Shown piece after piece: positions 20,539 through 21,903 of a stretch of DNA of 23,697 nucleotides. Each line of letters begins with the position of its first letter. Position 1 is the stretch's first letter. The notes beneath the pieces were generated by a model. That model was not told the origin of the DNA and ran no database searches. It worked only from the letters and a program-made list of their open reading frames with translations. This stretch comes from a virus, in the IMG/VR virus record IMGVR_UViG_3300022744_000099, positions 1 to 23,697 of that record. One strand, given 5' to 3'. The translations under genes and the position numbers were made by a program.

Positions 20539-21903
20539 ATGGCGATCCACCTCACGGCAACCACGCAATCGCTCGAGGTCGACGTCGCGGGCGCGGGCAG
20601 CGTCTCGGTCGACGTCGTGGCCTCGTTCGTTGAGACGACATCGAGCGCGTTCACGCCCGGCACGCAGGTCACGACCTTCGCGGCGGCCGGCGCCAGCGCG
20701 GTTGTCTCCGCGCCGGGTGCGTCCAGCACGTATCGCGCCGTGAAGCAGATCGCGATTCGGAACAAGCACGCGACGGACACCGTGACCGTCACCCCGCAGC
20801 TCGACGTGAGCGGCACGAATACGCCGTTCCTCAGCACCACGCTGCTCGCGGGCGAGGCGCTCCACTACAACGACGGTCGGGGCTGGACGAAGCTCTCCTC
20901 CGGCGGCATCGAGCAGGAAGCGACGATCACCGGCCCGATCGACGTGCAGGTCTTCACGACCACGGGCTCGAACACGTGGACGAAGCCGACGTCGTTCACG
21001 CCGAAGATGGTCGAGGTGCTGCTCTGGGGCGCGGGCGGCGGCGGTGCCGGTGGCGGCTCGGCGGCGGCGGCCGCAATCAAGATGGGTGGCAGCGGCGGCG
21101 GCGGCGGCGCGCACAACCGGCGCACGTTCCGGGCCTCGGACCTCAGCTCGACCGAGACGGTCACGATCGGCGCGGGTGGTAACGGCGGTGCCGGCGGCGT
21201 CGTCGGCGGCGCCGCGGGATCGAACGGCAACCCGGGCGGCAACACGACCTTCGGCACGACGGTTCGCCTGACGGCCGGCGGCGGCGGCGCCGGGCTCGGT
21301 GGACAGGTCGCAGCCACGGCAGGGTCCGGAGGGTCGGGCGGCGGCACGGGCGGCGTCGGCTCCCTCGGCGTCACGTCGACGGTGGGCGGCGGCGGTCCGG
21401 GTACGAACACGGTCACGCCCTCGGGCGGCACGGGCGGCGGCACTTCGATCACCGCCGCGGGCGGCTACGGCGAGTTCGGCGGGGCGGCGGGCGGCGGGCA
21501 CAACGCAACCCCGAGCGCGATCTCCGGCAGCGGCGGCGGCTCGCTCTACGGCGGCGGCGGCGGCGGATGTGGCGCCTCCACGACGGCGGTCCCGGCCGTC
21601 ATCCCAGCGACCGCTGGCGGTGCCAGCAACACGATCACGGCGGGGACGGGCGGTGCGCTGGGCGGCTCGACGCCCCCCGCGGCTGGTTCGAACGGCACTG
21701 ATGGAAACTCCGCCGTCGGCGGCTCCGGCGGCGGCGGCGGCGGGTCGAGCACCGCGGCGAACACCAGCGGCGCGAACGGCGGCAACGGCGGCACGCACGG
21801 CGGCGGCGGCGGCGGCGGCGGCGGCGGCAACACGACCGGCTCGAACACGGGCGGCAACGGCGGCAACGGCGGCAACGGCGCGGCGTACGTCTTCTCGTAC
21901 TGA
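20539..21903 (+). CDS. Glycine-rich tail adhesin, 454 aa
   Basis: Likely the distal receptor-binding protein. Residues 1-135 form a beta domain (SLEVDVAGAGSVSVDVVASF, VKQIAIRNKHATDTVTVTPQ). Next comes a conserved lead-in, VQVFTTTGSNTWTKPTSFTPKMVEVLLWGAGGGG (137-169), known from phage glycine-rich fibre domains. From about 164 to 448 the chain is dominated by GG, GGG and longer runs broken by short variable segments (TTFGTTVRLT, AAGGYGEFG, SLYGGGGGGCG). In the S16 phage adhesin such Gly runs pack as polyglycine-II helices and the loops between them bind receptor; the same design is inferred here. The protein ends NGAAYVFSY. ATG at 20539 has GGAGG 8 bases upstream and follows the fibre gene by 1 base. 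Confidence 0.85.
   Translation: MAIHLTATTQSLEVDVAGAGSVSVDVVASFVETTSSAFTPGTQVTTFAAAGASAVVSAPGASSTYRAVKQIAIRNKHATDTVTVTPQLDVSGTNTPFLSTTLLAGEALHYNDGRGWTKLSSGGIEQEATITGPIDVQVFTTTGSNTWTKPTSFTPKMVEVLLWGAGGGGAGGGSAAAAAIKMGGSGGGGGAHNRRTFRASDLSSTETVTIGAGGNGGAGGVVGGAAGSNGNPGGNTTFGTTVRLTAGGGGAGLGGQVAATAGSGGSGGGTGGVGSLGVTSTVGGGGPGTNTVTPSGGTGGGTSITAAGGYGEFGGAAGGGHNATPSAISGSGGGSLYGGGGGGCGASTTAVPAVIPATAGGASNTITAGTGGALGGSTPPAAGSNGTDGNSAVGGSGGGGGGSSTAANTSGANGGNGGTHGGGGGGGGGGNTTGSNTGGNGGNGGNGAAYVFSY
21799..21828 (+). repeat. (GGC)10 tract encoding ten glycines
   Basis: Ten identical GGC codons in the adhesin gene. Perfect triplet runs are prone to slippage, which here would change glycine number without a frameshift. 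Shorter GGC runs occur throughout 21029-21890. Confidence 0.85.

Follow-up and report, generated by a model that had tools for sequence, protein, structure and literature searches.

The window, meaning the whole stretch of DNA analysed here, is a 23.7-kb virus record (23,697 nucleotides, 71% GC). We found genes for a terminase, a portal, a MuF-like head protein, a tail terminator, a tail fibre and a tail sheath, and because of this gene content we read the window as a fragment of a myovirus genome with the glycine-rich gene in its tail module. The MuF-like head protein gene (10214–12076, + strand) seems to hold an intein, running from NCFPGDTPVW to LIVHNC; two intein profiles matched it below the cut-off, PF14890 at E = 0.037 and TIGR01445 at E = 0.061. 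Antisense inside the same gene lies an open reading frame (ORF) of 307 residues (11099–12022, − strand) with a helix-turn-helix match (PF13384, E = 6.6e-8) and a weak match to REase_MTES_1575 (E = 0.017). The features around the glycine-rich gene are as follows.

18600–20537, + strand: upstream tail fibre gene, 645 aa (PHROG tail fibre and tail protein matches)
20487–20534, + strand: C-terminal tag of the fibre, GLTQNQVLARSSFGGF (from the sequence and comparison with other upstream C-termini)
20539–21903, + strand: glycine-rich gene, 454 aa, with a beta-sandwich N-domain and a TG-type C-domain (ORF, Pfam and PHROG)
20539–20907, + strand: N-terminal beta-sandwich domain, residues 1–123, the proposed adaptor (AlphaFold2 pLDDT 96, pTM 0.88)
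20941–21900, + strand: glycine-rich domain, residues 135–454, predicted TNF-like base plus polyglycine lattice (VIA fold matches, 59-copy alignment)
21400–21459, + strand: loop stretch, residues 288–307, the most variable and indel-rich (model pLDDT 67–75 there)
21727–21744, + strand: Gly397–402, the second conserved run (sequence, 59-copy alignment)
21799–21828, + strand: perfect (GGC)10, encoding Gly421–430, of which 421–428 form the conserved eight-glycine core (sequence)
21985–23352, + strand: tail sheath gene (PHROG 205, E = 6.1e-89; Pfam DUF3383, E = 2.8e-33)

The glycine-rich gene starts with the ATG at 20539, a single base after the stop of the fibre gene; the original prediction, which spanned 20950–21903, had covered only the C-terminal 318 residues. 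Residues 140–343 of the protein match the Pfam family Gly_rich_2 (PF21722, E = 3.9e-7) with a score of 30.7 bits, above the curated gathering cut-off of 24.3, which places the protein in that family. Residues 27–252 match PHROG 863, "tail fiber assembly" (E = 5.2e-19), though this name may fit tip-like proteins of this sort only loosely.

To place the protein among its relatives, we started from a locus (L002) whose domain is 54% identical to that of the window. A profile of these two domains retrieved 42 loci in IMG/VR, and later scans added more. Many relatives share the layout of an N-domain followed by a C-domain, with a length of about 440–465 residues. Two alignments were built. The first, A2, holds 26 full-length sequences, that of the window and those of 25 loci taken from the 35 that are not truncated, leaving aside duplicates and near-duplicates (L023, L030, L031, L035, L042, L044), one locus with a collapsed C-domain (L024) and three divergent ones (L036, L041, L043). 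Gly_rich_2 matched 18 of these 26 members at E = 0.001. The second covers the C-domain only. We found 63 complete copies of it (and nine incomplete ones), dropped L024 and the three divergent loci, whose glycine runs are Gly10 (L036), Gly5 (L041) and Gly7 (L043), and aligned the remaining 59, which include the window and some near-duplicates and range from 12 to 91% GC3.

Against annotated phage records, tblastn returned no match to the whole protein or to the L002 domain; with residues 1–220 as the query there were two matching records, one at E = 1e-4 that spans residues 64–117 and one at E = 7. Glycine-rich matches are probably hidden by the BLAST low-complexity filter. A first scan of genomes with A2, in which one of the two patterns was nearly all glycine, yielded no confirmed relative among 590 matches, and a second viral scan with A2 added at least two loci. 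Of 20 genome pattern matches, three encode a relative, and since these come from an Armatimonadetes genome, a Planctomycetota MAG and an Alphaproteobacteria MAG, they suggest that the hosts are diverse. Three contigs (L046, L011 and L020) carry two tandem paralogous glycine-rich genes each; in L020 the upstream copy (1224–2609) also matches PHROG 863. In L024 (2623–3207) the C-domain has collapsed in frame, with the first glycine run joined directly to the last, as the result either of a deletion between glycine-coding repeats or of a misassembly.

We then turned to the fold of the glycine-rich domain. AlphaFold2, run on A2, gave a model with a mean pLDDT of 88 and a pTM of 0.71. A Foldseek search of this predicted model against the PDB returned only two chains at E ≤ 0.001, both of gp33 from mycobacteriophage Bxb1 (best E = 5.8e-10). 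In VIA comparisons, the model aligned with Bxb1 gp33 (9d93_Qa) over 217 residues at 2.3 Å (Z = 24.1) and with Pam3 gp24 at Z = 16.3 (7ypx) and 15.7 (7yfw), followed by ALK/LTK (Z = 6.0–9.2) and remaining rows at about 6 and below. Sequence searches of the PDB pointed the same way, with 9d93 as the sole match (E = 5.4e-5 from the single sequence, E = 2.7e-7 from the profile). The same domain matched 184 predicted viral structures at E ≤ 0.001, and is therefore common in phages.

By these fold matches, the predicted model has a TNF-like base with a glycine-rich polyproline II (PPII) lattice, and it is very probable that the glycine runs pack together rigidly as the tip of a fibre. DSSP assigned the glycine motifs of the model mostly to neither helix nor strand. 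Bxb1 gp33 and the Pam3 fibre are both described as PPII bundles (PMC13243192), and the authors of the Pam3 structure called the angles of its glycine motif close to beta-sheet (PMC9608196). The original prediction had proposed a polyglycine II (PGII) adhesin of the S16 type. The model's matches with Bxb1 gp33 and Pam3 gp24 are compatible with PGII packing, and a PGII/PPII-type lattice with loops, in a tail-fibre context, is supported; the label "S16-like" is not, for reasons given below. In short, the glycine-rich protein belongs to an already known kind, and its repeat is ordinary.

The N-domain is less familiar. Modelled alone, it is an all-beta sandwich of high confidence. None of the 42 members matched Pfam or PHROGs in this domain at E = 0.001, although the PHROG 863 match obtained with the full-length protein extends into the domain, and Foldseek found no match to the model at E = 0.001. 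A single match of one member of the 42 to the NCBIfam model RND_mfp (E = 0.0012) was taken as chance. The best VIA hits were two DUF4425 chains (Z = 6.7; 96 and 101 residues at 3.3–3.5 Å), and because common sandwich arrangements give a Z of this size we claim no family for the domain. In other phages it carries unrelated C-terminal modules. Among 78 non-redundant N-domain genes, from loci drawn by an N-domain DNA pattern and classed by script, 21 have the TG domain, 47 have other modules, six are the N-domain alone and four are cut off. Genes of 117–118 residues that consist of the N-domain alone occur in L154, L164, L169 and L196. Conversely, 16 ORFs with a TG domain, duplicates and truncated copies included, lack an N-domain match.

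What precedes the N-domain gene offered a further clue. The upstream fibre ends in a stretch that includes GLTQNQVLAR, and similar C-termini precede other members. We wrote this as a loose tag, [LIV][TS]..[QE][VI].[AG] within the last 25 residues, and, leaving out loci chosen for the tag, observed it upstream of 14 of the 116 N-domain genes and in 3 of the 3290 remaining ORFs (Fisher p = 8e-19), counts that are partly circular because the pattern was written after nine upstream C-termini among these loci had been seen. In the sample drawn by the N-domain pattern, 57 non-redundant N-domain genes have an ORF upstream. This ORF carries the loose tag in five cases, two of them (L162 and L194) on contigs already seen, versus 3 of 1096 other ORFs.

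Searching from the opposite side, two scans for the tag returned 30 and 38 loci, with 21 C-terminal matches in new contigs: seven in the first scan (L118, L122, L125, L129, L133, L135 and L136) and 14 in the second. An N-domain gene follows eight of the 21 (L118, L122, L129, L133, L136, L222, L236 and L245). Ten precede no N-domain gene (L217, L221, L224, L225, L226, L230, L238, L240, L241 and L246), with two peptides occurring three times each among them, and three could not be judged: the contig of L135 ends after seven codons, L125 is off-frame and L232 has a stop in the motif. In the second scan taken separately, 11 of the 14 matches precede no N-domain gene. The tag is thus associated with the N-domain in a subset of phages, and because it is absent before 102 of the 116 N-domain genes, docking through it cannot be general.

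Taken together, these data lead us to favour the view that the glycine-rich protein is probably an exchangeable distal tip of a myovirus fibre, in which the adaptor sandwich sits on the upstream fibre and a TG-type glycine-lattice domain touches the host. The N-domain of about 123 residues would dock onto the fibre encoded directly upstream, possibly via its C-terminal GLTQNQVLAR tag. The last ~320 residues would form the TG-type domain, with a small TNF-like beta base from which the glycine runs would extend as packed PPII/PGII helices, and the loops between the runs would face outwards and touch the host surface. We infer that the tip protein trimerises. The position of the gene between a fibre gene and a sheath gene fits such a tip, as does the glycine register, which is kept in all 59 complete copies. 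The authors of the Pam3 structure held the TNF-like and glycine-rich domains of gp24 responsible for host receptor recognition (PMC9608196). For haloarchaeal tailed viruses, host range has been linked to a glycine-rich adhesin of the tail fibre (PMC8651126).

The strongest competitor is a TG-domain protein on the tail surface that does not choose the receptor and instead acts as a brush or as a general aid to adhesion. We consider this unlikely, though it deserves weighing because the name "tail wing brush" is given to Bxb1 gp33, which is both the nearest relative with a solved structure and the sole PDB match by sequence. Purifying selection on the loops, described below, would suit such a protein too. 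On the other hand, the gene directly follows the fibre gene, some of the phages have the tag as a link between the two, and Pam3 gp24, which has the same fold, is the fibre itself.

A second alternative is a true S16-like gp38 adhesin, built from a helical attachment domain, a beta-helix and a PGII sandwich with hypervariable loops. The glycine motifs separated by loops fit this description, as does the match to PHROG 863, and the fold relative Pam3 gp24 has been reported to resemble S16 gp38 over 52 residues by DALI (PMC9608196). The gp33 domains are likewise described as resembling the S16 gp38 bundle (PMC13243192). Yet the PDB sequence searches contained no gp38 chain (phmmer E up to 1, profile E up to 0.1), the N-domain model is all beta rather than a helical bundle, and the best fold matches are of the TG type with a TNF-like base. 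S16 gp38 (6F45) was also absent among the listed fold matches, an absence that is not in itself proof of difference.

The loops bear on the same question. Across relatives, the mean entropy is 1.58 at non-glycine positions of the C-domain (26 rows), lower than the 2.01 of the N-domain (21 rows), and only 0.46 at glycine positions. Close loci show the opposite trend: in the six pairs formed by L013, L022, L023 and L031, dN/dS is 0.20–0.31 in the loops against 0.02–0.07 in the N-domain. Loops therefore change faster than the N-domain between close relatives, as a gp38-like adhesin would have it, and are less variable than the N-domain between distant ones. The most variable stretch, residues 288–307, is also among the lowest-confidence parts of the model. 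In all six close pairs dN/dS stays well under 1, so that nothing points to positive selection, and the alignments indicate that the loops vary between phages but are under purifying selection. The expected variable loops were thus borne out in so far as they differ between phages, and outpace the N-domain in close pairs, but not as loops driven to diversify. All considered, we regard a gp38 adhesin of the S16 type as improbable here, and return to the fibre tip with a TG-type domain as the preferred reading.

This leaves the (GGC)10 tract. Glycine runs with short loops and a perfect tract had been noted at the outset, and both are present; read in the CGG phase, the repeat extends over 31 nt from 21798. 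All remaining glycine runs of the gene have six codons or fewer. We simulated the gene by holding its glycines in place and sampling every codon independently of the others. At least ten identical glycine codons in a row appeared in 10% of simulations under the codon use of the gene itself, and in 3.5% when the codon use came from 13 further ORFs in the window. In its purity the tract is therefore only mildly unusual and, since codon use alone gives such a run in 3.5–10% of cases, this purity is weak evidence of anything. As amino acids, the glycine runs are not a product of chance: even relatives with a GC3 as low as 12% keep them.

Conservation of the core is close to complete. Gly421–428 is present in all 59 copies save for one His (L103) and one Ser (the second copy in L011), and there is no gap or insertion at residues 406–430 in any of the 59. 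The eight core glycines are spelled with mixed codons in 57 copies and with pure GGC only in the window and L047; in L002 (37% GC), for example, the core reads GGC GGC GGA GGG GGA GGT GGT GGT. Residue 429 is Val in 42 copies, Ala in eight, Cys in six, Thr in one and Leu in one, and Gly in the window only. Counted from the C-terminus, the window has ten glycines plus 24 residues, whereas most relatives have eight (or nine) plus 24. An insertion of the two extra glycines was considered and rejected: under BLOSUM62 with gap costs of 11/1, the forced insertion scored below the substitution register against all 58 relatives, some of which are near-duplicates (for L002, 138 versus 166). Since residue 429 is usually Val, Ala or Cys, the ten glycines of the window align best as a substitution at that residue which joins eight glycines and one.

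Close relatives agree. Among nine loci with 88–99.8% DNA identity, 60 of 115 all-glycine columns differ synonymously only, amino-acid variation affects 43 columns, among them a single-residue loop insertion, and no glycine run changes in length. The original prediction had held that the triplet number could vary without frameshift and so alter host range. Between phages this slippage route is contradicted by the lack of indels, the mixed codons and the synonymous-only change at glycine columns; the repeat number of the tract is invariant across the 59 copies. It is thus highly improbable that the tract is a contingency repeat whose gains and losses of codons alter host range, in spite of the perfect ten-copy triplet, the one-codon spelling shared by only two of 59 cores and the in-frame loss between the first and last glycine runs in L024, given that L024 may be a misassembly, that L047 keeps an aligned length equal to that of the window with a pure GGC core of its own, and that the run length fits the codon-usage expectation. 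The GGC repetition looks like a by-product of a GC-rich genome and its codon bias, with the runs read at the protein level. A tempting idea is thereby settled as far as comparison between phages goes: the perfect (GGC)10 of a gene for a tip protein resembles a host-range switch, but in relatives from 12 to 91% GC3 the glycines prove to be a constant part of the structure, and codon bias accounts for the repetition.

The part of this locus worth a second look is instead the adaptor-plus-tag arrangement, an uncatalogued domain and an associated fibre tag to which the analysis points. It is possible, though doubtful, that in many environmental tailed phages a helix-like fibre tag, GLTxxQVxAR, is bound by the uncatalogued beta-sandwich of ~123 residues encoded by the next gene, and that this sandwich is fused to freely exchangeable tips of which the glycine lattice is one; the glycine tracts may also act as in-frame recombination seams, as L024 might suggest. 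Titles and abstracts on neighbouring subjects, searched by subject rather than by the motif itself, contained no description of an adaptor-tag pair, which speaks weakly for its novelty. If real, the pair would help to tell the tip protein in many unannotated phages.

Several known systems resemble the window protein in part. The TG (TNF-like, glycine-rich) domain of ALK and LTK shares the general fold, but these are animal receptor kinases with middling Z scores and no sequence match. Gly_rich_2 covers residues 140–343 only and not the full domain, despite a match above its cut-off. The gp38 adhesins of S16 and PP01 share glycine-rich motifs, a lattice with loops and a fibre gene as neighbour, and the loops of PP01 gp38 contact OmpC (PMC12892980). 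S16 gp38, however, has a helical attachment domain and a beta-helix (PMC6851490), the PDB sequence searches gave no match to gp38, and extreme loop variability is not apparent in the alignments of the window protein and its relatives. Cyanophage Pam3 gp24 (7ypx, 7yfw) has the same TNF-like base and glycine-rich distal domain. It differs in its alpha-helical shaft and its chaperone gp25 (PMC9608196), where the window protein begins with a beta-sandwich domain and, since no ORF of at least 80 aa lies on the same strand before the sheath gene, lacks an adjacent chaperone gene of this kind. Closest of all is Bxb1 gp33 (9d93) in the fold of its glycine-rich domain, although its chain has 267 residues against 454 and the beta-sandwich of the window protein lies outside the aligned range (134–454). 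The analysis thus extends to a broad set of environmental phages a fold for which two phage tails have provided solved structures.
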